From positions 5,793,501 to 5,857,500 of the forward strand of contig NZ_CP115484.1 of the NCBI RefSeq assembly GCF_027627475.1: a DNA stretch of 64,000 bases, written 5' to 3'. The DNA comes from Paenibacillus sp. SYP-B4298 (lineage in GTDB: Bacteria; Bacillota; Bacilli; Paenibacillales; Paenibacillaceae). Position numbers and translations under genes: made by a program. How positions within the stretch are numbered: position 1 is the first letter of the stretch; every line of letters begins with the position of its first letter. A model generated the notes under the pieces. The model ran no database searches. It was not told where the DNA came from and saw nothing but the letters and a program-made list of their open reading frames with translations. This document shows positions 3,357 to 19,950 of the stretch, piece after piece.

Positions 3357-5150
3357 GTGCTTGGAAGGTTCAAAGGAATTCGTGGCAGCAGAACGCTGAA
3401 TATACGCACCACACTGCTGTTGAGTTATTTTACGATTATTCTGATTTGTATCGCGCTGGTCGGCTCGGTCGCATTCAGCATCGCCTATAATTCGATGCAG
3501 AAGCAGGTGGAGGACTCCAATGTGCAATTTGTGCGGCAGATTGAGGTCAACTTGGACAACGATTTTCATAATAAACGCAATGTTCTATTGGCACCCTATT
3601 ACAGTGAAGCGATGATCGACGGCATCAACGACTATGCTTCAATGAAGGAGCAGTCGCGTTTCCTGTTCCGCCAGGAGCTGGGCAATCTCTTTCTCAAAAG
3701 CTTCAATATTACGCCCATCCGTGATTTTGTGCGCTTCCAGATCTATTATAGCGATGGCGAGCTGCTATCCTCCTCCGACAACTACAAGCCCTGGACGGCG
3801 GCGCAGGCTCGCGCATCCGACTGGTTCCGCGGAACAGTGGAGCTGGATGGCAAGGTGTTCTTCAGCGGCATCCCAGCCAAGCAGGCAGGGGCAGAGGAGG
3901 CGGCGTATGCTACCTCGCTGCTGATTCGTGATTTCGCTAACCCGGATCAGTTCATCATTGTAAGGGCTGAGTATAGCAATGACCTGCTGCGCAACATCAG
4001 CCCGAAATCAGCCGCGACCAGAATGATCATCCTGGATTCTCAGGACAGGCAAGTTTATGATACGGCAGGGGCGGACAAGCCGCTGGCGACGAGACTCATG
4101 AGCCGCCTCGGGAGCGCAAGCGGGCAGTTCTGGCATGCTGGGGCAGCAGGCGATGATCTGGTGTCCTATGTCAAGTCGCGGTATTCGGGCTGGAAGATCG
4201 TGCTGATGACGCCGCAGGCAGAGATCTTTGCCCCGCTGGAGAAGATCAAGACCAGCGCGTTAATGACGGTTGCGGTCGCCTTCGTGCTGGCGTTCCTCAT
4301 CTCGGTGCTGTTCGGGCGCAGCATCACCAAGCCGATTCTAGACATGTACAAGACGGTGAATCGCATCAAGCGGGGCGACTTCTCGGTGCGGGTGCCTGTG
4401 GGGCGCAATGACGAGATCGGGCGAATCGCGATGAATTTCAATGCGATGCAAGATGAGCTGCAGCATCTGTTCGAGAGCAAATATTTGTACCAGATCAGGC
4501 TGCAGGAGATGCAACTGGCAATGCTATATTCCCAGATTAACCCTCATTTTCTGTATAACACGCTGGATAGCATCAAGGCGATGGCCGATTACTACAAGGT
4601 GCAGGACATCGGGGCTATGGCCCAATCGCTTGCCGATATGTTCCGTTATAATACGAAAAACCGCGATGATGTCGTGACGCTGCAGGAGGAGCTGGTGCAG
4701 ATTGAAGCGTACATGAACATCCAGCAGATTCGTTTTGATGACAAGCTGTCCTATGTAACGGAGATTGAAGAGGAGCTGTACAGCTTCCCGCTGCTCAAGA
4801 TGACGCTCCAGCCGCTTGTGGAGAATGCGGTCTTTCACGGCATTGAGCGCAAGCGAGGCAAGGGGCTTATCCATATCGCTGCTTATAGAGACCAGGAGCA
4901 GATGGTGTTGGCTGTGTCTGATGATGGCGTCGGCATATCAGAGACGAGGCTAGCTGAGCTGCTAGCGCGTCTGCGTCCATCCTCGCTGTCCGACCCGGTA
5001 GCAGAGACAGCAGGGGGAGGCGGGATCGGGATCAGCAATGTGTATTCGCGCTATGCGATCCGTTATGGCGAGCGGTTCGCGATGACGGTCGATAGTCGGA
5101 AGGGGCGCGGTACCTGCATTACGCTACGTCTGTCCGAGTCGGAAGGATGA
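3357..5150 (+). CDS. YesM-type sensor histidine kinase
   Basis: The 597-residue membrane kinase should sense an extracellular carbohydrate signal and phosphorylate the response regulator at 8512. A transmembrane helix (~20-42), a ~250-residue extracellular sensor region, a second helix (~298-318) and a HAMP linker (~320-370) precede the kinase core. The phospho-acceptor His397 is in QINPHFLYNTLDSI, typical of the His_kinase/LytS-YesM class. The ATPase N-box (PLVENAVFHG) and glycine boxes (DDGVGI, GGGIGISNV) are intact. The start is GTG 3357 behind a GGGGGGAT ribosome site. The regulator is separated from it by the three transporter genes, a common arrangement in Paenibacillus sugar operons. 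Confidence 0.93.
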   Translation: MLGRFKGIRGSRTLNIRTTLLLSYFTIILICIALVGSVAFSIAYNSMQKQVEDSNVQFVRQIEVNLDNDFHNKRNVLLAPYYSEAMIDGINDYASMKEQSRFLFRQELGNLFLKSFNITPIRDFVRFQIYYSDGELLSSSDNYKPWTAAQARASDWFRGTVELDGKVFFSGIPAKQAGAEEAAYATSLLIRDFANPDQFIIVRAEYSNDLLRNISPKSAATRMIILDSQDRQVYDTAGADKPLATRLMSRLGSASGQFWHAGAAGDDLVSYVKSRYSGWKIVLMTPQAEIFAPLEKIKTSALMTVAVAFVLAFLISVLFGRSITKPILDMYKTVNRIKRGDFSVRVPVGRNDEIGRIAMNFNAMQDELQHLFESKYLYQIRLQEMQLAMLYSQINPHFLYNTLDSIKAMADYYKVQDIGAMAQSLADMFRYNTKNRDDVVTLQEELVQIEAYMNIQQIRFDDKLSYVTEIEEELYSFPLLKMTLQPLVENAVFHGIERKRGKGLIHIAAYRDQEQMVLAVSDDGVGISETRLAELLARLRPSSLSDPVAETAGGGGIGISNVYSRYAIRYGERFAMTVDSRKGRGTCITLRLSESEG

Positions 5151-5208: not shown

Positions 5209-5248
5209 AGAAAGCGCTTGCAATATAATGTGTGTGTAAGCGATTACT
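5209..5248 (+). promoter_or_regulatory. Promoter with two flanking cre-like sites
   Basis: A perfect TATAAT (5224-5229) with no good -35 is flanked by AGAAAGCGCTTGCA (5209-5222, 12 of 14 to the cre consensus) and TGTAAGCGATTACT (5235-5248, 13 of 14). CcpA binding at the paired sites would block initiation of the binding-protein transcript. The weak -35 suggests an activator, presumably the YesN-type regulator. Confidence 0.6.
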
Positions 5249-5283
5249 ACAGCAAGCTTCAGCTAACGGGGAGGTTACAGGAT

Positions 5284-6657
5284 ATGAGAAAAATGAACAG
5301 AACCGCATCACTGCTCATGCTCAGCCTCATGGTAGTGGTTATGTCGGCCTGTGGGGGCAATGCAGGCAATACCGGCGCTTCATCTGGCGGCACTAGCTCC
5401 GGGGAAACGACCGGAACTACAACGGAACAGACAGAGGAGAGCAGTAAGCCAGCGAAAGACCCGGTGACGTTAACCTTCGTCATCCCGAATACGGTGGATA
5501 CGACACCATTCACCAATATCTTTGCCGAATATGAGAAGGCGACCGGGAACAAGGTGGAGCTGCAGGCGCTGCCGGGCGGGGATTACGACAATATGATGAA
5601 AACCCGCTTCTCGACAGGAGATTTCCCAGACCTGTTCCTCATGCAGCCGGGACCGAAGCAATATGTCAAGCTGAGAGCGGATGAGACGCTTGTTGAATGG
5701 TCGGGCGAGGCCGATGTGTGGAGCCGCATTATTCCTTCCATGAAGGAGTTCCAGGAGAAGGAAGGCAAAATCTACGGCGTGCCGTATGGAGCGACCGGTA
5801 TGATGGGTGTCTACTACAACAAGGATGTATTCACCACTGCTGGAGTACAGCCGCCGACGAATTACGCTGACCTGCTGGAGATCGCCAAGAAGATCAAGGC
5901 GAAGGGGATTACGCCGTTCTATGAGGGCGTCAAGGATGCATGGCCGCCACAAGTATTCTACTTGACAGGATGGGTATCGTATATCGATCCGGCGATCGGC
6001 GACGAGGGCGTCGCCAAGCTGGAGAAGAACGAGCTGAAGCTCGCCGACATTCCAGAGCTGCGCGCCCTGTTCGAGAAATCCAAGGAGCTGAAGGATCTGG
6101 GCTTGTACCAGGATAATATATTGGCAGGTACCTTTGACGAGCTGCAGAACCTGCTGGGTGAAGGCAAGGTTGGCATGGCGTTCATGCTGGACGGCATCAT
6201 TCCACAGCTCGAGAAAAAATTCGGCAAGGAGTTCGTGAACAGCAAGCTGGGCTTCTTCCCCTTCCCGTCTGCGACGGATGCGGGCACGGCACTCGTTACG
6301 CCGCCGAACCAGCTCATGATTCCGAACAAGGCCAAAAATGCCGAGACAGCTAAGGAATTGGTCAAATTCATGATCTCGCCGGATATGGTCAACCTGTATT
6401 ACAAAACCCAACCGGGCATTCCGATCTTCGATGGCGCGACGAGCGAATTGTATGCGGTGCAGCAGATTGTGAAGGACCTGATGGATCAAGGCAAATCGAA
6501 GGTGAACATTCAGAACCGTCTGACAGCCAGCTTTGCCGACTTCCAAAAAACACTGCAAACCTTCTTCATCGATGGCGATATTGATAAGGCGATCAAGGAG
6601 TTCAGCGCCAACTACGAGAAGGATGGCAAGTCGAAGCGTCTGGCAGGGTTTGAATAA
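5284..6657 (+). CDS. Sugar ABC transporter, solute-binding lipoprotein
   Basis: The 457-residue binding protein captures a carbohydrate outside the cell and passes it to the permeases encoded next. The signal peptide ends in a lipobox (VMSAC, Cys ~23), followed by a Gly/Ser/Thr-rich linker. The mature part is a family-1 (UgpB/MalE-like) binding protein: an opening VTLTFVIPNTVD strand, YGVPYGATGMMGVYYNKDVF, and an alternating Trp/Tyr-rich ligand surface. I chose ATG 5284, 9 nt after GGGGAGG; in-frame codons back to 5218 include the -10 box and cannot be translated. A stem-loop follows the stop. The ligand is unknown; the linked GH127-like hydrolase suggests an arabinose-type oligosaccharide or another plant glycan. 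Confidence 0.92.
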   Translation: MRKMNRTASLLMLSLMVVVMSACGGNAGNTGASSGGTSSGETTGTTTEQTEESSKPAKDPVTLTFVIPNTVDTTPFTNIFAEYEKATGNKVELQALPGGDYDNMMKTRFSTGDFPDLFLMQPGPKQYVKLRADETLVEWSGEADVWSRIIPSMKEFQEKEGKIYGVPYGATGMMGVYYNKDVFTTAGVQPPTNYADLLEIAKKIKAKGITPFYEGVKDAWPPQVFYLTGWVSYIDPAIGDEGVAKLEKNELKLADIPELRALFEKSKELKDLGLYQDNILAGTFDELQNLLGEGKVGMAFMLDGIIPQLEKKFGKEFVNSKLGFFPFPSATDAGTALVTPPNQLMIPNKAKNAETAKELVKFMISPDMVNLYYKTQPGIPIFDGATSELYAVQQIVKDLMDQGKSKVNIQNRLTASFADFQKTLQTFFIDGDIDKAIKEFSANYEKDGKSKRLAGFE

Positions 6658-6796: not shown

Positions 6797-7666
6797 ATGG
6801 AAAGACTCAAATACCCATTGTATTTTTCGTTTCCGGCGCTCGCCGTATTTCTGACATTTTTTATTACACCGACTATTATAGGCTTCTACTACAGCTTCAC
6901 GGATTGGAATATAAATGCCGACTCGATCAAGTTCATCGGCTGGGATAACTATGCCGCGTTGTTTGCGGAGCCGCGATTGAAGACGGCGTTGATCAATACA
7001 ATGATTTTTGCCGCCGCAGTGACGGTGCTGCAAAATGTGAGCGGGCTGGGGCTCGCGCTCATCCTGAATGAGGCGCTGGTGCTGCGCAATGTGCTGCGGA
7101 TGATCTTTTTCCTGCCGTATGTCATTGCACCGATTGTCATTGGCTATATTTTTCGGGCGATCTATCACCCGGAGCATGGCATTGTGAATGTGCTGCTTAA
7201 CAATGTGGGGCTGGGCTTTCTTGCACAGGACTGGCTGAATGATCCCAAGTATGCGCTGATGGCGATTATCGCGACAGATATTTGGCGGGTGGCCGGCTTC
7301 TCAATGGTCGTCTATCTGGCCGGGCTGCAATTCATTCCGAAAGATCTGACGGAGAGTGCTTCGATCGACGGGGCTCATTACTGGAGCCGGTTCCGTCATA
7401 TTGTGTTTCCGCTGTTGGCTCCCGCATTTACGGTGAACGTGCTGCTGTCCATGATCGGCTCGATGAAGGTGTTCGAGATGGTGATGGTGTTGACTGAGGG
7501 CGGCCCCGGCTATACGACAGAGGTATTCTACACCTATATTCGCAGTATGTTCAGCTCGGGCGAGATGGGCTATGCGACGGCTGTCAATATGGTGCTGTTC
7601 GTGCTGGTGACGGTGATTGGCGTGCCTGTGCTGATGGCGATGAAGAAACGGGAGGTGGAGATGTGA
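6797..7666 (+). CDS. Sugar ABC transporter permease (MalF/UgpA type)
   Basis: The 289-residue inner-membrane permease is one half of the channel of a carbohydrate-uptake ABC transporter. Six hydrophobic helices can be seen, starting with the segment at residues 11-33. The ATPase-contact EAA loop reads LTESASIDGAHYWSRFRHIV, with the usual conserved Gly. The ATG at 6797 follows a GGAGGGGGAGG ribosome site. The gene overlaps the second permease by a few bases. No ATPase gene is present in the operon, so a shared MsmX-type ATPase encoded elsewhere probably energises it, as is usual for this transporter class in bacilli. Confidence 0.94.
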   Translation: MERLKYPLYFSFPALAVFLTFFITPTIIGFYYSFTDWNINADSIKFIGWDNYAALFAEPRLKTALINTMIFAAAVTVLQNVSGLGLALILNEALVLRNVLRMIFFLPYVIAPIVIGYIFRAIYHPEHGIVNVLLNNVGLGFLAQDWLNDPKYALMAIIATDIWRVAGFSMVVYLAGLQFIPKDLTESASIDGAHYWSRFRHIVFPLLAPAFTVNVLLSMIGSMKVFEMVMVLTEGGPGYTTEVFYTYIRSMFSSGEMGYATAVNMVLFVLVTVIGVPVLMAMKKREVEM

Positions 7667-8484
7667 TGAAGCGGCGAGGCATGCTGATCGGTCTGGAGAT
7701 CATCGCGATATTGCTGGCGATGGTGATCCTGGTGCCGTTCATAATGATTGTGCTGAACTCGTTCAAGGATATTCGCGAGTCGGCGCTGTTCGGACTCTCT
7801 CTCCCGTCAGAGTGGATGGTGAGCAACTATAAGGATGTGCTGAACCAGGCTAATATTTTGCGCGGCTTCAAAAACAGCTTTCTGATCTCCGGACTGGTCG
7901 TGATCTGCGTGAACCTGTTCGCCTCGATGGCAGCATTCGTCATCCAGCGGCGCAACGACAAGTTCCTGCGCGGCGTCTACTATGCCTTCATCCTTGGTCT
8001 GATCGTTCCGGTCTCAATCGTGCCGACGATCAAGCTGATGAATGACCTGGCGATTAAAGGCACGTATTTCAGCATTATCATGTACTATACCGCTGTGCTG
8101 CTGCCCTTCTCGGTCTTCCTGCTGGTCGGCTTCATGAAGTCGATTCCGCGGGAGCTGGATGAGGCGGCGATGCTCGAGGGCTGCGGATTTTTCCGACTGT
8201 ACTGGCAGATTATCCTCCCGCTGCTGATGACGATTCTCGTTACGGTGACCATCGTCGTCATGGTGTCGGTGTGGAATGATTTCTTCGGACCGTTCTATCT
8301 GGTGACTGACAGTACGAAGTGGACGATCGTGCTACAAATCTTCAATTTTGTCACGATGTATTCGACGAACTGGGGCATTGTGTTCGCCTTCATGGTGATC
8401 GTGGTGGCTCCGGTATTGATCATCTATCTGCTGCTGCAACGCTACATCATAGACGGCCTGACGGCGGGTTCGCTGAAGGGTTAA
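7666..8484 (+). CDS. Sugar ABC transporter permease (MalG/AraQ type)
   Basis: This 272-residue permease pairs with the preceding one. It has six membrane helices and an EAA loop (LDEAAMLEGCGFFRLYWQII). Two starts are possible: GTG 7663 and ATG 7666. GGAGGTGG at 7651-7658 is 7 nt from the ATG and only 4 nt from the GTG, so I prefer ATG 7666, which overlaps the upstream TGA (TGATG) and implies translational coupling. The C-terminus ends in the family-typical YIIDGLTAGSLKG. The transported sugar is the same unknown ligand as for the binding protein at 5284. Confidence 0.94.
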   Translation: MKRRGMLIGLEIIAILLAMVILVPFIMIVLNSFKDIRESALFGLSLPSEWMVSNYKDVLNQANILRGFKNSFLISGLVVICVNLFASMAAFVIQRRNDKFLRGVYYAFILGLIVPVSIVPTIKLMNDLAIKGTYFSIIMYYTAVLLPFSVFLLVGFMKSIPRELDEAAMLEGCGFFRLYWQIILPLLMTILVTVTIVVMVSVWNDFFGPFYLVTDSTKWTIVLQIFNFVTMYSTNWGIVFAFMVIVVAPVLIIYLLLQRYIIDGLTAGSLKG

Positions 8485-8511: not shown

Positions 8512-10110
8512 ATGGAGAAGCTGAAGGTGCTGGTGGTGGATGATGAGAAATGGATCAGACGGGGCTTGATTCAGTCGATCCCCTGGGAGGAGCTGCCGCT
8601 GGAGCTGGCGGGTGAGGCAGGAGACGGGGAGGACGGCTACCAGCTAGCGCTGGAGCTCCGCCCCGACCTGCTGTTTCTGGATATGCGGATGCCGGGTCTG
8701 GACGGCAAGGAGCTGATCGGCATGCTGAGCCGGGAGCTGCCGGAGCTGCTGACGATCGTCATCAGCGGCTACACCGACTTCGAATATACGAAGGAAGCGA
8801 TCCGCCACAAGGCGTATGAGTATCTGCTCAAGCCGGTGAGGAAGGAAGAGCTGGCCTCGGTGCTGGAGAAGGCGGTTGCCGAGCTGCAGCGCAGGCGCGC
8901 GGGGGCGCAGGCAACCGAGCGCGGCGGGCGCGGCGCCTGGCTGCAGAGGGCGCTGAGCCAGCAGGAGGAGCCGCCCGGCAGCTTTCCGTTCGCGGCGCTG
9001 CCAGGCGGGACAGGCGAGTGCAGGCTGTATGTCGGCCTGCCCGACTGCTATGGAGCGCAGCCTGCCGGGGCGGCGCTGCTGCCGCAGCTAGAGGCGAAGC
9101 TGGAGAAGGAGCGGGCCTTCCACCTCGGCGGCAACTGGAGCTTCGCCGCGTGCGCACTGGGCGACAGCGGCGAGATTGCGGTGCTGCTCCATGCGCCCGC
9201 GCAAGCATCGGCGCCGCAGGAGCTGGAGCGGCTCGCAGCGCTGCTGCTGGGCGGCGCCAGCCAGCAGGGCGGCGGGTGCAGCTTCGGCTGCAGCGCACCG
9301 CTGCGCGAGCCGGGCGAGATGCGGCGCGCCTATCGGCAGGCGCGCACGGCGCTGCTGGCGCGTCGGATCGGGCAGGAGCGGGTGCTGGTGCAGCATCCCG
9401 CCGCGACGGCCGGGGCAGCCGCTCCGTACCCGCAGGAGCAGGAGCGCGCGCTGCTGCTCGCGCTGCAGACCGGCAATCGCGAGGCAGCGCTGTCTGCCTT
9501 CGAGCGGCTGTACAGCGAGCTATCTGCGCCGCAGATGACGGTCGAGAGCCTCCAGCGCAGCGCGGCGCTGCTCGTTCATGCGCTTGACAAGCTGCTGATC
9601 GCCGTGGGCTCCGGGCTGGAGCAGGCGTCCGGGCAGAGCCTGCTCCATGTGACGGAGCAACTGTCCTGCCGCTGCGATGCGGAGTCGATCCGTATACTGC
9701 TGGCCGAGCAGCTATTGCCGGCGGTGCTGGAGGCTTGTACGCGCAGCGGCAGCCGCCAGGGTGATCAGGCGATGAGCGATGTGCTGAGGCTGATCGAGGC
9801 CCACTATGATCAGGCGCTGTCGCTGCCAGAGATTGCAGGCAGCTTCTATATGAACCCCGATTATTTCAGCCGATTGTTCAAGCGGAAGACGGGGAAGACG
9901 TTCGTCGATTATTTGACCGATTATCGGATACGCAAATCCCAGGAGCTGATGCAGCGCTCCGGGTACAAAAATTATGAGATCGCCAAGCTGGTCGGCTATG
10001 ACGACTATCGTTATTTTAGTCAGATCTTCAAGAAAAAGACGGGTCAGACCATTGGTGAATACCGCAAGAATACAGGTAATCTTACGTATAAAGGAGAGAG
10101 TGAGCGATGA
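8512..10110 (+). CDS. YesN-type response regulator (REC + AraC HTH)
   Basis: The 532-residue regulator should be phosphorylated by the YesM-type kinase at 3357 and then activate the sugar operon. The receiver domain (~4-122) has the acidic pair D10-D11, phospho-acceptor D57 (LLFLDMRMPG) and K107 (LLKPV). Residues ~135-420 are a variable, extremely GC-rich linker domain. The C-terminal AraC domain (~425-522) carries two helix-turn-helix units (LSLPEIAGSFYMNPDYFSRLFKRKTG and KNYEIAKLVGYDDYRYFSQIFKKKTG). GGAGGGA precedes ATG 8512. The gene overlaps the next by 4 bp (ATGA). The middle third is much richer in GC than its neighbours, a pattern often seen in fast-drifting linkers. Confidence 0.93.
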   Translation: MEKLKVLVVDDEKWIRRGLIQSIPWEELPLELAGEAGDGEDGYQLALELRPDLLFLDMRMPGLDGKELIGMLSRELPELLTIVISGYTDFEYTKEAIRHKAYEYLLKPVRKEELASVLEKAVAELQRRRAGAQATERGGRGAWLQRALSQQEEPPGSFPFAALPGGTGECRLYVGLPDCYGAQPAGAALLPQLEAKLEKERAFHLGGNWSFAACALGDSGEIAVLLHAPAQASAPQELERLAALLLGGASQQGGGCSFGCSAPLREPGEMRRAYRQARTALLARRIGQERVLVQHPAATAGAAAPYPQEQERALLLALQTGNREAALSAFERLYSELSAPQMTVESLQRSAALLVHALDKLLIAVGSGLEQASGQSLLHVTEQLSCRCDAESIRILLAEQLLPAVLEACTRSGSRQGDQAMSDVLRLIEAHYDQALSLPEIAGSFYMNPDYFSRLFKRKTGKTFVDYLTDYRIRKSQELMQRSGYKNYEIAKLVGYDDYRYFSQIFKKKTGQTIGEYRKNTGNLTYKGESER

Positions 10111-11831
10111 CTACGAGATGGATACCGGATACGCTGACACTGGAGGAGCGTGCTGCTGCCGCCTTGAATGCGATGACAGGGATGGCGGATCAGGATTTTG
10201 ATCATATTCCGTTCTTTGCCGCCAATCTGATGCAGGAGCCTGCGCATCTGACGCATGGCGACTGGGATTACGGCTCGTCCCATGGGCGGATGGTGGACGG
10301 CATGATCCTGGCACGCCATATGTCCGGCTCTGAGCAGGGCACGGAGATTGAGGCGAAGTACAGAGCCAATCTGCTCTCCTTCTTCAAGGAGGATGGCCTG
10401 AGCTACCGCCAGCAGAATCCGCATCGTGAATGGGAGCCGAACGCCAACTTCATCGACCAGCGCGCCGTTATCCTGTCCTTGACGACCTGGTATATGTCAT
10501 CAGGCGATGAGCGTGTCAAGGAGGCGGCCGACAAGCATGTGGCGGCGCTCAAGCGGGTAGCGATCAAGGAGCGCGAGGTGTGGTATTATCCAGCCTCGGA
10601 ATATAAGGATGGCGGCTGGCCGTCCTCGAATGCCGTGCAGTTGCGCCTTGCTCCCGACCCGGCGGCCTTCTGCGGGCGGCTGATTATGCCGCTGCTCAAA
10701 TACCATGAGCTGACAGGCAACGCTGATGCCCTGGAGCTATGCGAATTCTTCGCTGCATTAATCGTACAGCGCAGCGGTGTATTCAACAAGGACGGCAGCT
10801 TCAACGATTCGCTGGCGTATCGCAGCGGGCATTTTCATACCCGGCTCGGTACGCTCGATGCGCTGGCTCGCTTCGGCGCCTTCACCAAGGATGCCTCGCT
10901 CATCAACTTCGTTGAGCGCAGCTATGCGTGGGCGCTCACCCAATGCACCGCGTTCGGCTGGACGCCGGGCGATCTAAAGGAGCAAGCCTATGAGCATGAG
11001 ACCTGCTCGCTCGTCGATCTGATCTCAACCGGCATTACGCTGGCGCAGAGCGGCTACACCCAATACTGGGGCACGGTCGAGCGCTTCATCCGCAACCATC
11101 TGGCCGAGTCGCAGCTACTGGAGATGGGCTGGGTGAAGGAGACGAAGGATACGGCAGGCAATGTGCCGGGGCTGATCACTTATAGCGATATTGCCGACCG
11201 GACGAGAGGCGCCTTCGCGGGTTATTCCGCGCCTAACGATTTCTGCTGTGACGTGAATCATGGCCGGGGCCATACAAGCGATCTGCAAATCTGCTGTCTG
11301 GGCTCTGGTACGCGCGGTCTCTATATGGGCTGGAGCAATACAGTAACGGAGCACAAGGGGACGGTCAGCGTCAACTTCCTGCTGAACCGCGGCTCTGCCT
11401 GGCTCGATGTGGACAGCTATCTGCCGCATGAGGGCAAGGTGGTGCTCCATATTCATCGGGACATACCGAGACTGCGCGTGCGCATCCCGGAGTGGGCAGG
11501 CTGGGCGAAGGTCAGCTTCGTCCGTGAGCAGGGCGGCGAGGTTTCGGAGGGCAACGGCAGTGAGCCAAGCCGCTGGGTGAATGAGGTATTCCTGCTGCTG
11601 GGCGCAGCCAAGGCAGGCGAGAAGATCACCATTACCTTCCCGCTGTCGGTGCGCAAGACGATCGAGACGGCAATTGGTCAGACCTTCGAAACGCTGTGGC
11701 GCGGCGATGATGTGATCGATATTTCTCCTCAGGGCACCAAGCATCCGTTCTATAGCGGGCGGAAGGTATATGATGAAGCGCCGCTTCGCGAGGGCAGCTA
11801 TGTCCGCCATGAGCAGGAGCTGGTCTGGTAA
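10107..11831 (+). CDS. GH127-like glycoside hydrolase, (alpha/alpha)6 fold
   Basis: The 574-residue cytosolic protein (no signal peptide) resembles the GH127/GH146 beta-L-arabinofuranosidase superfamily. Those enzymes use a Zn-bound cysteine nucleophile held by Glu, Cys and a Cys-Cys pair. Here HETCSLVDLI supplies E298 and C300, and two Cys-Cys pairs occur downstream (C380-C381 and C396-C397, the latter in QICCLGSGTRGLY); one of them should complete the site. The N-terminal two thirds is helical with repeated aromatic segments; the C-terminus (~415-560) is a beta-domain. The start codon overlaps the regulator stop. It probably trims the imported oligosaccharide; the exact bond is unproven, and other unsaturated-glycan hydrolases share this fold. 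Confidence 0.72.
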   Translation: MTTRWIPDTLTLEERAAAALNAMTGMADQDFDHIPFFAANLMQEPAHLTHGDWDYGSSHGRMVDGMILARHMSGSEQGTEIEAKYRANLLSFFKEDGLSYRQQNPHREWEPNANFIDQRAVILSLTTWYMSSGDERVKEAADKHVAALKRVAIKEREVWYYPASEYKDGGWPSSNAVQLRLAPDPAAFCGRLIMPLLKYHELTGNADALELCEFFAALIVQRSGVFNKDGSFNDSLAYRSGHFHTRLGTLDALARFGAFTKDASLINFVERSYAWALTQCTAFGWTPGDLKEQAYEHETCSLVDLISTGITLAQSGYTQYWGTVERFIRNHLAESQLLEMGWVKETKDTAGNVPGLITYSDIADRTRGAFAGYSAPNDFCCDVNHGRGHTSDLQICCLGSGTRGLYMGWSNTVTEHKGTVSVNFLLNRGSAWLDVDSYLPHEGKVVLHIHRDIPRLRVRIPEWAGWAKVSFVREQGGEVSEGNGSEPSRWVNEVFLLLGAAKAGEKITITFPLSVRKTIETAIGQTFETLWRGDDVIDISPQGTKHPFYSGRKVYDEAPLREGSYVRHEQELVW

Positions 11832-11997
11832 GCTGTCCTTGTCCGCAAGCGAGACGGGATAAGGTTAGGACAAGTCGAGGCCAGAACCGGGGGCAGTGTC
11901 GAGGGCCGAGCAGGGGACTTAGCGGTAGGGCGTGGCGGGAGGTACTATCAATTCCGGAAAGCTGAAGCGAGCCGGGTCGGGAGAATGGAGGATTCAT

Positions 11998-12693
11998 ATG
12001 GGAGAGAAGAGGACACGAAAGGTCGTCGCGGTCTATACGGGCCTGGCGCTGGCGGAGCCGCTGCGCGCAGTATTTCAGGAGCTGCTGCCCGAGGTGAAGC
12101 TGGTGAGCATCGTGGACGATAGCTTGATCGGCGAGGTCATTCAGGCCGGGCATGTGCCCGCAGGCGTTGCGCGCAGGCTGATGCAATATTTTCATCACGG
12201 CGAGGAGCTGGGGGCAGATGTCATCCTCAATACGTGCTCCTCAGTAGGCGAGGCCGCCGATGCGGCGCGCAGCATGATCGCCACGCCGCTCGTCAAGATC
12301 GACGATGCGATGGCGGCGAAGGCGGCCATCGAGTATGGGCGGATCGCTGTTCTGGCGACACTGCCGACGACACTTGATCCGACGATGCGTCTCATCCGTC
12401 GCAAAGCGGAGGAGGCGGGCAGGGAGGTCGAACTGGTCAGCGGACTCGCGGAGGGCGCGTTCGAGGCGCTGTCCGGGGGCAGGCCGGAGGAGCATGACCG
12501 CCTCCTGCTGGAGACTGCGCGCAAGGCGGCCGAATCGGCAGAGGTGCTCGTGCTGGCGCAAGGCTCCATGGCGCGTATGGAGAGTCGCATCCGCGAGGTG
12601 ACAGGAAGACCGGTGCTGTCCAGTCCGCGGCTTGGTGTGGAGGCTGTCAAGGCGGTGCTGGAGGCGCTGGAGCAGGAAGGAGCGGGCGTATGA
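11998..12693 (+). CDS. Asp/Glu-racemase-fold protein with one catalytic cysteine
   Basis: The 231-residue protein belongs to the Asp/Glu/hydantoin racemase superfamily. The first catalytic cysteine is present (C80, VILNTCSSVGEAAD), but where two-base racemases have the second Cys this protein has AQGSMARM, with Ser190. One-Cys members of the fold, such as arylmalonate decarboxylase and some isomerases, catalyse other proton-transfer or decarboxylation reactions, so amino-acid racemisation is unlikely. ATG 11998 follows GGAGG by 6 nt; in-frame codons upstream lack a ribosome site. The gene overlaps the RuBisCO-like gene by 4 bp, so the two products are co-translated and probably act in sequence on a sugar acid. 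Confidence 0.78.
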   Translation: MGEKRTRKVVAVYTGLALAEPLRAVFQELLPEVKLVSIVDDSLIGEVIQAGHVPAGVARRLMQYFHHGEELGADVILNTCSSVGEAADAARSMIATPLVKIDDAMAAKAAIEYGRIAVLATLPTTLDPTMRLIRRKAEEAGREVELVSGLAEGAFEALSGGRPEEHDRLLLETARKAAESAEVLVLAQGSMARMESRIREVTGRPVLSSPRLGVEAVKAVLEALEQEGAGV

Positions 12694-13973
12694 GCGGCGT
12701 CGCTGGAGCAGGTACACAGGAGCGGGTGCGTGCGGTCTATCTGATTGAGACGCCCTGGTCGCTGGAGAGAGCGGCCGCTGTGATGGCCGGGGAGCAGTCG
12801 ACCGGCACGTTCACCGCCGTTCCGGGCGAGACAGATGACCTCAAGCTGCGCCATGCGGCGCATGTGGAGCATATCGAGCCGCTGGAGCCGCTGGCAGCGC
12901 CGACCTTGCCGGGAGCGGCAACGCCGCCCGGACATGATGGCCTCTATCGCCGAGGACGGGTGACGCTGTCGTTCCCGCTCCATAACTTCGGGCCGTCGAT
13001 CCCGAACCTGCTGTCCGCTGTTGCTGGCAATCTGTACGAGCTGCAGGAATTCTCGGGGCTGCGGCTGCTCGATCTGGAGCTGCCGTCATCCTTCGCCGCT
13101 GCCTATCCCGGCCCGAAGTTCGGGGTAGACGGCACACGCCGCCTGACGGGGGTGCAGGGGCGTCCGCTGCTGGGCACGATCGTGAAGCCGAGCATCGGGC
13201 TTACGCCGCAGGAGCTGGGAAGCCTCGTCTATGACATGGCGCTGGCCGGACTCGACTTCGTGAAGGATGATGAGTTGAATGCCAACCCGCCGTTTGCTCC
13301 GATGGAGCAGAAGGTGCAGGCGGTCATGGAGGCGGTCGAGCGCGCAGCGGACGTGACGGGGCGCAAGCTGATGTATGCCTTCAATATTACCGGAGAGATC
13401 GACGAGATGAAGCGGCACCATGATATGATCGTGCGCCATGGCGGCAACTGCGTCATGGTCAGTCTGCTCAGCATCGGGCTGCCTGGACTGGCGCATCTGA
13501 ACCGATACAGCGAGGTGCCGATCCACGGGCATCGCAATCAATGGGGGATGCTGACGCGCTCTCCCGGCTTGGGCATGAGCTTTACGGCCTACCAGAAGCT
13601 ATGCCGCCTGGCAGGAGCAGATCACATCCATGTGAATGGCCTGAACAGCAAATTTTACGAGAGCAACGAGTCCGTCACCACGTCGCTCCAAGCCTGTGTC
13701 GAGCCGCTGTTGGGAGGCTATAAGGCGATGCCTGTCGTCTCTTCAGGGCAATGGGCGGGGATGGCTCATGCTACGTATGCTGCGGCAGCCAGTGTGGATG
13801 TGATGCATCTGGCGGGCGGCGGTATCCTTGCACATCCCGGCGGCCCTGCCGCAGGCTGCCTGAGTATGAAGCTGGGCTGGGAGGCAGCCGTGCGCGGTAT
13901 CCCGCTGGAGCAGTATGCGGCCGAGCATCCGGCGCTCATGCAGGCGATCGCCAAGTTTCGAGGCAGGCAGTAA
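12690..13973 (+). CDS. RuBisCO-like protein (form IV type)
   Basis: The 427-residue protein is a homologue of the RuBisCO large subunit. By eye alignment many active-site residues survive: E35 (spinach E60), N114 (N123), K166 (K175, GTIVKPSIGL), K192-D194-E195 (the carbamylated K201-D203-E204, FVKDDE), H281-R282 (H294-R295), H314 (H327), K321 (K334) and the C-terminal GGG phosphate loop. K177 is replaced by Ser168. Known RuBisCO-like proteins act as enolases, isomerases or 3-oxo-sugar-acid-phosphate decarboxylases (MtnW, OiaX). No methionine-salvage genes are nearby, so MtnW is unlikely. Its coupling to a racemase-fold gene and a sugar operon suggests sugar-acid catabolism. The reaction is unassigned. 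Confidence 0.88.
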   Translation: MSGVAGAGTQERVRAVYLIETPWSLERAAAVMAGEQSTGTFTAVPGETDDLKLRHAAHVEHIEPLEPLAAPTLPGAATPPGHDGLYRRGRVTLSFPLHNFGPSIPNLLSAVAGNLYELQEFSGLRLLDLELPSSFAAAYPGPKFGVDGTRRLTGVQGRPLLGTIVKPSIGLTPQELGSLVYDMALAGLDFVKDDELNANPPFAPMEQKVQAVMEAVERAADVTGRKLMYAFNITGEIDEMKRHHDMIVRHGGNCVMVSLLSIGLPGLAHLNRYSEVPIHGHRNQWGMLTRSPGLGMSFTAYQKLCRLAGADHIHVNGLNSKFYESNESVTTSLQACVEPLLGGYKAMPVVSSGQWAGMAHATYAAAASVDVMHLAGGGILAHPGGPAAGCLSMKLGWEAAVRGIPLEQYAAEHPALMQAIAKFRGRQ

Positions 13974-14236
13974 CAGGCATGAAGCGGTAGTCAGTGGGCA
14001 GCAGTCAGTGAGTGGCAGTCGCCCTGCTATGGTAAGCAGGCTGCTACGATCAAACCGTGCAGCGTGGGTGCTCGCCTTCCATGGCTCGCTGCTTGACGGC
14101 ATCGCCATCAGGTTCATGCGATATGCGATGCCGATGTCGCTAGCGAGCCTGGTGGCTTCCGTGGTCATCGGTACAGATGGACAGATTGCTCCTGCGCTCC
14201 CGAGCTTGAGGATCGTGACGCGGGGGCTGCCAATAG

Positions 14237-17920
<3,684 letters not shown>

Positions 17921-17971: not shown

Positions 17972-18010
17972 AGAACGACAATGCTTGATGATGGAGGGTG
18001 GAGCTGCTGT

Positions 18011-18859
18011 ATGGCAGATTTTCAATATAACCCGCTGGCTCCGCATACGGCGGAGCCGGAGCTGCATCTGTTGTTCTGGGGCAAGGAGGCCTGTGCGCCC
18101 GGGCATGCGGTCGGGCCGGGGGTGCGCGATGTATACAAGGTGCATCTGGTGCATCAGGGCACAGGCATCGTCCGGGTGATGGATAAGGAGTATGCGCTGG
18201 GAGCAGGCGAAGGTTTTCTGATCTATCCACAGGTGCTGACGTACTATGAGGCGGACGCGGTGCAGCCGTGGGTCTATTCATGGCTCGGCTTTACAGGCAC
18301 CCGTGTGCCGGACCTGCTGAAGCGTACCAGACTGACACCGGAGCGCCCGGTGTTCCCGATGGATATGCAGGTGATGCCGTTCCTCTATGAGCGGATGACA
18401 GAAGCGCTGGAGCTCGGAGCGGCGAGCGATCTGCGACTATCTATATTGCTGCATGAATATTGGGCGGCGCTGATCGGTGAATATCCTGCTTCCCGTGCTG
18501 CCAGGTCCGCTGTCGGCAAGCAGGAGGGGTATGTGCATCAAGGACTCGAATATTTGCATGCGCACTATAGCGAGCAGGTGACGATTGGCGAGCTGGCGGC
18601 CTATATGGGGCTGGATCGCAAATATTTGTCAGTGCTGTTCAAGGAGGCTGTCGGGATGCCGCCACAGCAGTATCTGCTCCATTATCGGCTGGAGAAGGCA
18701 AGCAGGCTGCTGCGCGATACCGGCTACTCCGTGGGCGAGATTGCCCATTCGGTTGGCTATCGGGATGCGCTGTTGTTCTCGCGCATGTTCCGCAGGAAAT
18801 ACGGCATGTCGCCTCGCCAATACCGTAGCCAATATACGGAACAAGACATTATTCCATAA
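18011..18859 (+). CDS. AraC-family transcriptional regulator
   Basis: The 282-residue one-component regulator has an N-terminal cupin-like ligand-binding domain (~20-150; VHLVHQGTGIVRVMDKEYALGAGEGFLIYP) and a C-terminal AraC DNA-binding domain (~175-275; VTIGELAAYMGLDRKYLSVLFKEAVG, then YSVGEIAHSVGYRDALLFSRMFRRKYG). I chose ATG 18011 because GGTGGAG ends 6 nt before it; the ATG at 17981 precedes that site. It lies between the beta-galactosidase and aldo/keto reductase genes, so it probably activates one or both in response to a sugar. The ligand is unknown. Confidence 0.9.
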   Translation: MADFQYNPLAPHTAEPELHLLFWGKEACAPGHAVGPGVRDVYKVHLVHQGTGIVRVMDKEYALGAGEGFLIYPQVLTYYEADAVQPWVYSWLGFTGTRVPDLLKRTRLTPERPVFPMDMQVMPFLYERMTEALELGAASDLRLSILLHEYWAALIGEYPASRAARSAVGKQEGYVHQGLEYLHAHYSEQVTIGELAAYMGLDRKYLSVLFKEAVGMPPQQYLLHYRLEKASRLLRDTGYSVGEIAHSVGYRDALLFSRMFRRKYGMSPRQYRSQYTEQDIIP

Positions 18860-18960
18860 AGTACTTCCTTACTGCCATAGTCACTTCTGTAGCTTTGCGT
18901 TATTGTAATAGTTAATAAGGTTGGCCAGATCGCCTTTCTATCATAAAGGGGGAGCATTGA

Positions 18961-19950
18961 ATGGCATATAGCGCACAGGAAAATCGATATGACACGATGA
19001 TATATTATCGCAGCGGACGCAGCGGGTTGAAGCTGCCGGCGATCTCACTGGGCTTGTGGCATAACTTTGGGGGCATTGATGTCTATGAGAACGGCAAGGC
19101 GATGGTGCAGCGGGCGTTCGACCTGGGGATTACCCACTTTGATCTGGCGAACAACTACGGCCCTCCTCCCGGCTCGGCCGAGGAGACATTCGGTCGGATA
19201 CTGAAGCAGGAGCTGTCTGCTTATCGCGACGAGATGATTATATCGACCAAGGCAGGCTATTACATGTGGCCAGGCCCATACGGGGAATGGGGCTCCAAAA
19301 AATCTCTCATCTCCAGCCTCGACCAGAGCCTTAGGAGGCTGCAGCTTGATTACGTGGACATCTTCTATCATCATCGCCCTGACCCGGACACCCCGCTGGA
19401 GGAGACGATGGGCGCACTCGATCTGATCGTTCGTCAGGGCAAGGCGCTGTACGTTGGCCTCTCCAACTACAGCCCGGAGGATACGCGGCGGGCATCGGAG
19501 ATACTGCGCAGACTAGGTACGCCTTGCCTGATTCATCAGCCGCAATACTCCATGCTGTCGCGCCATGCGGAGCAGGGACTGCTGGATGTGCTGGCAGAGG
19601 AAGGGATCGGCTCCATCGCCTTCTCGCCCCTTCATAAGGGAATCTTGACGGACCGCTATCTGGATGGCATTGCCCCCGGCTCGCGGGCGGCGGGGCCGAG
19701 CGTGTTCCTGCGCCCGGAAGAGCTGACCGAGCAGACGATGAAGAAGGTGCGCGCTCTGAATGAGCTGGCGCGGGAGCGCGGACAGAAGCTGTCCCAGATG
19801 GCACTCTGCTGGGTGCTGCGTGGCGGTCGCGTGACGTCGGCACTGATCGGAGCGAGCAAGGTGAGCCAGATTGAGGACGCCGTAGGCGCGCTCCGTCATA
19901 TCGGATTTACGGCGGAGGAACTGCAACGCATTGATGATATATTGGCCTAA
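18961..19950 (+). CDS. Aldo/keto reductase, YghZ-like
   Basis: The 329-residue NADPH-dependent oxidoreductase has a TIM-barrel fold. The catalytic tetrad is present: Asp and Tyr in FDLANNYGPPPGSAEE, Lys in ISTKAGY and His in FYHHRPDP. The N-terminus and the GPPPGSAEE segment match the YghZ/Kv-beta-like subgroup, which reduces small aldehydes such as L-glyceraldehyde 3-phosphate or methylglyoxal. AAGGGGGAG precedes ATG 18961. It follows the AraC regulator by 100 bp. It may reduce a sugar aldehyde produced by the neighbouring pathway, but it could equally be a general detoxifier. Confidence 0.9.
   Translation: MAYSAQENRYDTMIYYRSGRSGLKLPAISLGLWHNFGGIDVYENGKAMVQRAFDLGITHFDLANNYGPPPGSAEETFGRILKQELSAYRDEMIISTKAGYYMWPGPYGEWGSKKSLISSLDQSLRRLQLDYVDIFYHHRPDPDTPLEETMGALDLIVRQGKALYVGLSNYSPEDTRRASEILRRLGTPCLIHQPQYSMLSRHAEQGLLDVLAEEGIGSIAFSPLHKGILTDRYLDGIAPGSRAAGPSVFLRPEELTEQTMKKVRALNELARERGQKLSQMALCWVLRGGRVTSALIGASKVSQIEDAVGALRHIGFTAEELQRIDDILA

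Follow-up and report, generated by a model that had tools for sequence, protein, structure and literature searches.

The operon considered here lies in a 64,000-nt stretch of the Paenibacillus sp. SYP-B4298 genome (NZ_CP115484.1, positions 5,793,501 to 5,857,500 of the forward strand; the window below), and it encodes a sugar ABC importer, a GH127-like hydrolase, a racemase-fold (PF01177) protein with one catalytic cysteine, a RuBisCO-like protein (RLP) and a GH2 beta-galactosidase. From sequence comparisons, we propose that it takes up an oligosaccharide from rhamnogalacturonan-II (RG-II), a complex plant cell-wall pectin, breaks it down and catabolises its L-aceric acid, a rare branched sugar acid; to this reading we give an even chance of being right. 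Its more specific form is a four-enzyme aceric acid pathway in which the single-Cys racemase-fold protein would be an aldose-ketose isomerase and the RLP would act on a 5-deoxy analogue of the ribulose-1,5-bisphosphate (RuBP) enediolate, transferring its carboxyl group internally and cleaving it to 3-phosphoglycerate and L-lactate; this we offer tentatively, as possible rather than expected. An earlier note on this DNA had described the hydrolase, the racemase-fold protein and the RLP as a coupled unit serving an undescribed route. What stands of it is a unit conserved in sugar operons, with an RLP that is not MtnW, scores below the OiaX cut-off and belongs to a supported clade with mostly shared partners; what it overlooked is a DUF1537 kinase resembling OiaK, and it named no substrate linking the hydrolase to the RLP.

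The proposal draws on two enzymes of Bacteroides thetaiotaomicron. Passages of PMC10850190 and PMC5698469 describe BT1003, of family GH127, as an aceric acid (3-C-carboxy-5-deoxy-L-xylose) hydrolase, which PMC5698469 places in RG-II breakdown, and PMC11739564 assigns BT_0993, of family GH2, to the Gal-beta1,2-aceric acid unit within an RG-II side chain. RG-II chain B, according to PMC12282258, is a nonasaccharide that has apiose and rhamnose as its basis and includes methyl-fucose, and a legend in PMC7939467 gives the acidic RG-II sugars as galacturonic acid, glucuronic acid, Kdo, Dha and aceric acid. In the proposed scheme, the ABC importer would bring in an RG-II oligosaccharide (side chain B), the GH2 enzyme would strip beta-galactose from aceric acid, the GH127-like hydrolase would free aceric acid, and the one-Cys PF01177 protein would turn this aldose into the 2-ketose HOCH2-CO-C(OH)(COOH)-CHOH-CH3, a beta-keto acid. 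An OiaK-like kinase, encoded elsewhere in the genome, would phosphorylate the CH2OH group of the ketose, and the RLP would decarboxylate the ketose phosphate to a RuBisCO-like enediolate. Because the RLP keeps RuBisCO residues, we think it would more likely re-add the carboxylate and cleave to 3-phosphoglycerate and L-lactate, in an OiaT-like reaction, than stop at CO2 and 5-deoxypentulose-1-phosphate in the manner of OiaX. The side chain with Gal-beta1,2-aceric acid is, we presume, chain B. D-apiose pathways with the RLPs OiaX or OiaT and the kinase OiaK were reportedly described by Carter et al. in 2018, the OiaT reaction giving 3-phosphoglycerate and glycolate, and it is by analogy with these products that 3-phosphoglycerate and L-lactate would arise here.

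Aceric acid carries its carboxyl on C3, and a shift of the carbonyl from C1 to C2 gives 3-oxo-isoapionate with CH(OH)CH3 in place of CH2OH. By this reasoning, only aceric acid among the acidic RG-II sugars named above becomes a beta-keto acid by isomerisation alone. It would thereby account for the presence of a kinase and an RLP of the OiaK/OiaX/OiaT kind together with the absence of the dehydrogenase and oxidoisomerase of apiose catabolism, since a substrate that is already an acid needs no dehydrogenase, and it would leave a single gene, that of the PF01177 protein, for the isomerisation. We know of no fate for aceric acid in B. thetaiotaomicron, and the openly licensed literature, as judged from some passages and otherwise from titles and the openings of abstracts, yielded no aceric acid catabolic pathway.

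In the window's family, genomes with the hydrolase also have the PF01177 protein. Among 245 genomes, with strong matches defined as more than 1000 bits for the GH127-like hydrolase, more than 330 bits for the PF01177 protein and E below 1e-160 for the RLP, the three are found in 23, 24 and 30 genomes, respectively, and the 23 genomes with the hydrolase have the PF01177 gene in every case and the RLP in 21. These thresholds leave out seven genomes of genus g2 with distant GH127-like profile matches only (177-274 bits), 17 with weaker PF01177 matches (up to 252 bits) and two with RLP matches at E of about 1e-63 (G010, G051). That the hydrolase and PF01177 protein stay paired in all 23 genomes, with or without the RLP, fits a direct metabolic hand-over between them. 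In the two genomes that have this pair and no such RLP (G184, G240), the pair is followed instead by another kind of DUF1537 kinase, together with a BKACE protein (L097:6573-9479, L098:6811-9773); these kinases match the Pfam family in both genomes, and the one tested gave no NCBIfam match at 1e-20. BKACE, the beta-keto acid cleavage enzyme (PF05853), which here occupies the place of the RLP, belongs to a Pfam family other than that of RuBisCO and performs a cleavage instead of carboxyl chemistry. From these gene contents, the hydrolase and PF01177 protein are the core of the system, and two unrelated beta-keto-acid enzymes appear able to finish the pathway. This replacement of RLP and kinase by BKACE and kinase is our strongest independent hint that the PF01177 step yields a beta-keto acid.

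A scan of a one-genome-per-species collection for close relatives of the RLP gave 38 loci (34 from Paenibacillus or Cohnella by title; genes counted by tblastn at E 1e-10, in loci related by descent), which fall into three contexts with the exception of L044. An OiaK-like DUF1537 kinase is present in all 38, usually as the gene next to that of the RLP. In the first context, comprising 25 loci with a GH127-like gene, the PF01177 gene is found in 24 (partial in L032, missing from L046) and a side-chain hydrolase of GH78, GH2, GH42, GH95 or GH106 in 24, each becoming 23 of 25 at E 1e-15, whereas neither occurs in the 13 loci without a GH127-like gene. A GH2 of the window's type appears in 5/25 of the former and 0/13 of the latter, an ApnO-like gene in 1/25 (L037) vs 4/13, and a TRAP permease in 0/25 vs 7/13. 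Fisher p values for these counts and for the genome counts above take no account of shared descent and serve as description. Six of the 25 also contain split transketolase genes adjacent to one for an FGGY kinase, presumably an apulose route. Taken together, the neighbours in these relatives (rhamnosidases, fucosidases/GH95, beta-galactosidases, the split transketolases and a relative of BT1017) fit the composition of chain B. The BT1017 relative, found in L045, is a weak match to this RG-II methylesterase (6goc, E 2.8e-6), and it was the one match obtained when four proteins of families we could not assign were compared with the PDB for RG-II-only families, the other three giving none. The earlier note had suggested growth on arabinans, which is less likely than RG-II because arabinose yields no acid for the kinase and RLP and because the neighbours in relatives are rhamnosidases, galactosidases and fucosidases. 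The window's own GH2 enzyme shares its family with BT_0993. Outside the window, this genome has four matches to the rhamnosidase family PF17389 (three over the cut-off) and two to the apiosidase family. Large proteins near the block with no Pfam or PDB match (L027:18179-20395, L032:13423-15453, L045:2190-5528) are candidates for undescribed hydrolase families.

The second context is, from its gene content, the oxidative apiose route: L031, L033, L038 and L047 have an ApnO-like PGDH_C gene and a Gfo/Idh-like match, three of them with an apiosidase-like gene (Pfam Apiosidase in L047). Two genomes of the same genus (L056, L057) carry the same set, so that five of the six such loci have an apiosidase-like gene, and none of the six gives a GH127-like or PF01177 match. 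The third context consists of eight loci that encode a zinc alcohol dehydrogenase and a class II aldolase, joined in seven cases by a TRAP permease, and its substrate is perhaps another branched or 3-oxo acid. Seven loci (L034, L036, L039, L040, L041, L043, L050) share a conserved operon of RLP, kinase, zinc alcohol dehydrogenase, TRAP transporter and class II aldolase genes, some with a GntR gene.

Beyond the family, only two of 72,556 plasmid records, both from Streptomyces, match the hydrolase; there the GH127-like gene lies beside those for an RLP, a kinase, two GH78 enzymes, a GH2 enzyme and a GH42-like protein, and the annotated record additionally has two GH28 genes and an alpha-L-fucosidase. 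On a Rufibacter (Bacteroidota) plasmid, genes for an RLP, a kinase and a PF01177 protein follow one another, with a pectinesterase nearby. In family f61, of the same phylum and far from the window's family, the GH127-like gene occurs in 3 of 398 genomes, between GH42 and alpha-L-fucosidase genes. Those three loci (L109, L110, L111) also encode a protein of 1,033-1,039 residues with no Pfam match, which by eye may be GH106-like.

The hydrolase has no Pfam match at E 0.001, and its predicted structure is of low confidence (pLDDT 58.6). With that model, the titles of the top 18 Foldseek matches name GH127/GH146-type beta-L-arabinofuranosidases or BT_1003 (E 8e-13 to 4e-9), the BT_1003 structure 5mqo ranking 14th. 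Across 12 diverse members there is no variation at Glu298 and Cys300, in the motif E298-T-C300, or at Cys396 and Cys397, which agrees with the Cys3-Glu zinc site that a passage of PMC10850190 attributes to GH127/GH146. A profile of these 12 members gave seven PDB matches, six of them GH127/GH146 chains, and only the best, 5opj (E 9e-4), falls below E 0.001; in the profile alignment, Cys396-Cys397 lies opposite the CC of 5opj, and the E-x-C pair was matched by eye. The enzyme appears to resemble BT1003 in fold and metal-site motif and differs from it in being about 14% identical, in scoring below the GH127 Pfam cut-offs and in apparently acting in the cytosol after ABC import. By eye it has no obvious signal peptide. 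We refer to it as GH127-like and do not place it in GH127 itself.

The PF01177 protein matches its Pfam family at 77 bits (cut-off 31), and its predicted structure aligns with 3s81 at Z 22.2 and a root-mean-square deviation of 2.7 over 216 residues. It had been called a one-Cys protein, correctly: C80 is kept, and the position of the second racemase cysteine is Gln188, on which ground a two-Cys amino acid racemase was rejected. The motif C-S-[ST] ... A-Q-x-S-M is found in 37 of 38 aligned sequences, the exception (L032) being a fragment without these columns. The protein thus shares its fold and first catalytic cysteine with the Asp/Glu/allantoin racemases and has Gln for their second; unlike them, several of its homologues examined sit with sugar genes. 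A one-base enzyme would suit a 1,2-proton shift, where racemases use two bases. PF01177 relatives match 157 plasmid records; of the eight contexts opened among the 30 matches listed, all with PF01177 proteins that share the one-Cys motif, two have a DUF1537-type kinase (L066, L067), two a class II aldolase (L066, L078) and three a sugar ABC transporter (L066, L074, L075), and L076, L077 and L079 show no kinase, aldolase or such transporter. The Deinococcus plasmids among them (L066:8078-12798, L078:7007-8577) have a one-Cys PF01177 gene of the same subfamily beside the class II aldolase, together with a four-carbon acid sugar kinase in L066.

The RLP matches RuBisCO_large at 231 bits, and its best PDB match is 3nwr, titled 'A rubisco-like protein'. 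By motif, its E35, N114, K166, K192, D194, E195, H281, H314 and K321 are equivalent to the spinach residues given in the earlier note, and Ser168 occupies the position of spinach K177, again in agreement with it; these ten residues are each at least 97% conserved in 37 called RLPs. In spinach numbering, Glu35, Asn114, His314 and Ser351 correspond by motif to RuBisCO E60, N123, H327 and S379. Because these four equivalents are kept, the RLP may retain chemistry beyond decarboxylation. The window RLP differs from both annotated OiaX proteins, those of R. etli (L065) and S. meliloti (L072), at Glu35 (Asp in the two OiaX), Asn114 (Gly), Ser168 (Ala), Asn232 (Gly), Gly286 (Asp), His314 (Gln) and Ser351 (Gly), and RuBisCO residues are among those that the two OiaX have lost; RLPs in the GH127 context (n = 28) keep the window-type residues at all seven positions, except two at 168. 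The best NCBIfam match of the RLP is the OiaX model (NF042437), at 459 bits and thus under the cut-off of 700, and no OiaT model is among its NCBIfam matches; for comparison, R. etli OiaX scores 784, and L047, a Paenibacillaceae RLP from the apiose context, only 451. Membership of OiaX was rejected on this score, on the differing residues and on the lack of ApnO and Gfo/Idh among the operon genes read in the window. Form III RuBisCO was rejected as well (TIGR03326, 239 of 497 bits; Ser168 at K177), as was MtnW (TIGR03332, 162 of 513.6 bits), which bears out the placement outside MtnW that had been expected. Methionine salvage genes had been said to be absent, and this is so for the window and not for the genome: a second, MtnW-type RLP at 2.577 Mb (L060:6373-8997), with neighbours that are MtnX-like (by eye) and MtnB-like (aldolase family), looks like part of an ordinary methionine salvage operon.

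A RuBisCO-superfamily tree and a check of gene neighbourhoods had been proposed to see whether the RLP forms a clade with the same partners, and largely it does. After removal of four MtnW rows and L073 (a first tree had branches of length 10), and with L048 left out, the window RLP falls in a set of 26 rows (support 99/95) composed of 24 GH127-context rows and L054 and L055. The latter two have RG-II-like neighbours and no GH127-like gene in the fetched stretch, and in the genome of L054 (G005) one is found on that contig at a distance of about 19 kb. L045 falls among RLPs of the apiose context, and the long-branched Streptomyces row is separate from the others. L048 (CP106741.1) has apparent frame breaks in several genes of the block, probably reflecting sequencing quality or decay.

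For the window itself, the missing kinase is the least secure part of the argument. No clear kinase remnant was found in the gap between the RLP and GH2 genes, where the best tblastn match (E 0.012) is short and overlaps the end of the RLP gene, and a decayed kinase at this place was rejected. The genome has a single PF07005 match (1822939-1823664), in a gene at 1822708-1824297 (L059:7708-9297) that is accompanied by a divergent GntR gene and unlinked to the RLP (1.82 vs 5.81 Mb). It scores 494 bits against the OiaK model (cut-off 700), where the kinase of the R. etli oiaX operon scores 473. The genome gave no ApnO (PGDH_C) match, which leaves this kinase with no other evident partner than the window RLP; no control genome gave such a match either, so this absence is weak.

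Several observations weigh against the aceric acid proposal. The window operon has no DUF1537 kinase, and the unlinked one groups weakly (70/92) with an apiose-context kinase and not with those of the GH127 context. To our knowledge, no PF01177 enzyme isomerises an aldose. The label GH127-like, apparently sound at the level of fold and motif, does not extend to Pfam, where the hydrolase scores 12.1 and 12.8 bits against PF07944 and PF20736 (cut-offs 24.9 and 24.2). VIA-align, using the low-confidence model, ranks other (alpha/alpha)6 barrels, namely sugar 2-epimerases and glucuronyl hydrolases, at Z of about 17 to 21, with no GH127 among the 50 rows shown, which we do not take as absence; and the hydrolase-family profile did not match the genome's own two GH127 proteins, in a comparison of thin alignments. 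The RG-II-specific GH139 was not identified among the four proteins compared with the PDB. The partners are also separable: each Streptomyces stretch encodes an alcohol dehydrogenase and lacks a PF01177 match, the Rufibacter stretch has no GH127-like match, the f61 loci have no RLP match within theirs, and in G126 the PF01177 gene is about 60 kb from the hydrolase and kinase genes (L101:7565-12130), between an apiosidase-like gene and GH42/GH95 genes. Context labels follow the RLP tree imperfectly, with five label changes needed for the GH127-context RLPs. Finally, Paenibacillaceae RLPs from the apiose (ApnO) context and the TRAP-context RLPs checked keep the same residues as the window RLP, so by sequence these residues set a wider RLP group apart from annotated OiaX and are no marker of the GH127 context.

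The explanation closest to our own keeps aceric acid and makes the RLP a plain OiaX-like decarboxylase of the ketose phosphate, with an aldolase encoded elsewhere splitting 5-deoxypentulose-1-phosphate into dihydroxyacetone phosphate and acetaldehyde. OiaX is indeed the best NCBIfam model, if under its cut-off, and the genome has five matches to the aldolase family PF00596, one being the MtnB-like gene; the kept carboxylation and hydration residues and the lack of an aldolase matching the ALD14 query in all 25 GH127-like loci make this rather unlikely. A further D-apiose route, with 3-oxo-isoapionate as the substrate of RLP and kinase and with apiose or a neighbour of it set free by the GH127-like enzyme, we consider unlikely. 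It has in its favour that OiaX and OiaK are the models closest to the RLP and kinase sequences, along with the presumed apulose genes in 6/25 loci, the apiosidase-like neighbour in G126 and the weak grouping of the genome's own kinase. The systems known for D-apiose (Carter et al. 2018, as cited in a passage of PMC6302742) are alike in having an RLP beside a DUF1537 kinase, in tertiary beta-keto acid chemistry and in a plant cell-wall sugar context. The window block, however, lacks ApsD and ApnO and has the GH127-like hydrolase and PF01177 protein instead, whereas ApnO (PGDH_C) and Gfo/Idh accompany R. etli OiaX. Apiose is not oxidised to an acid without ApsD and ApnO, the GH127-like loci have an ApnO-like gene in 1/25 and an apiosidase-like gene in 0/25, the oxidative sets seen combine RLP and kinase with ApnO-like and Gfo/Idh genes and no hydrolase or PF01177 match, and the genome's own lack of PGDH_C points the same way, weakly.

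Quite unlikely, in our estimate, is a hydrolase that is simply a beta-L-arabinofuranosidase, with the PF01177 protein, RLP and kinase serving an unrelated acid, such as an aldonate, that merely shares its regulation. In the tree of PMC10850190, beta-L-arabinofuranosidases make up most of the characterised GH127/GH146 enzymes, and RG-II also holds beta-L-arabinofuranose; against this, the hydrolase and PF01177 protein keep company in all 23 hydrolase-bearing genomes, and no acid-sugar kinase or beta-keto-acid enzyme is required for arabinose. That the RLP is MtnW or a true RuBisCO is very improbable: superfamily membership, the catalytic Lys and the carbamylation site agree with it, and the model scores given above, the separate MtnW-type RLP and the Ser at K177 speak against it.

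Genes of the operon in the window and the gap where relatives mostly carry a kinase gene
Feature	Position	Strand	Basis or remark
YesM-type sensor histidine kinase	3357..5150	+	His_kinase, HAMP, HATPase_c (Pfam)
Sugar ABC substrate-binding protein	5218..6657	+	SBP_bac_1, 120 bits; open reading frame from TTG, true start probably later
Sugar ABC permease 1	6797..7666	+	BPD_transp_1
Sugar ABC permease 2	7663..8484	+	Open reading frame and translation; 4-bp overlap with permease 1
YesN/AraC-type response regulator	8512..10110	+	Translation
GH127-like (alpha/alpha)6-barrel hydrolase	10107..11831	+	Foldseek, invariant motifs, profile match to 5opj
PF01177 (Asp/Glu racemase fold) protein, C80 and Gln188	11998..12693	+	Pfam, fold, alignment; open reading frame open from GTG 11932
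RLP, OiaX/OiaT-related	12690..13973	+	RuBisCO_large, NCBIfam, tree, residues
Gap where relatives mostly have an OiaK-like DUF1537 kinase	13974..14287	+	314 bp; no clear kinase remnant
GH2 LacZ-type beta-galactosidase	14288..17920	+	Glyco_hydro_2_C, Bgal_small_N (Pfam)

The response regulator, hydrolase, PF01177 and RLP genes are intact, and the coordinates agree with the 4-bp overlaps reported earlier between the response regulator and hydrolase genes and between the PF01177 open reading frame (11932-12693, ATG at 11998) and the RLP gene. The gaps at 11832-11997 and 13974-14287 contain no terminator-like site, so the sequence does not contradict co-transcription. By tblastn, relatives of the binding protein precede the same block in many loci, and those of the response regulator sit within it in many. 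Positions 17981-19950, 3′ of the GH2 gene, encode an AraC-type regulator and an aldo/keto reductase resembling L-glyceraldehyde-3-phosphate reductase.

If the aceric acid proposal is true, the block fills a gap, as a hydrolase that frees aceric acid has been described and no fate for the freed sugar came up in the openly licensed literature. The RuBisCO superfamily would gain a substrate very close to the RuBP enediolate and the racemase fold a role as a sugar isomerase, and the two related genomes in which BKACE with its kinase replaces RLP and kinase open the beta-keto-acid step to a direct test.

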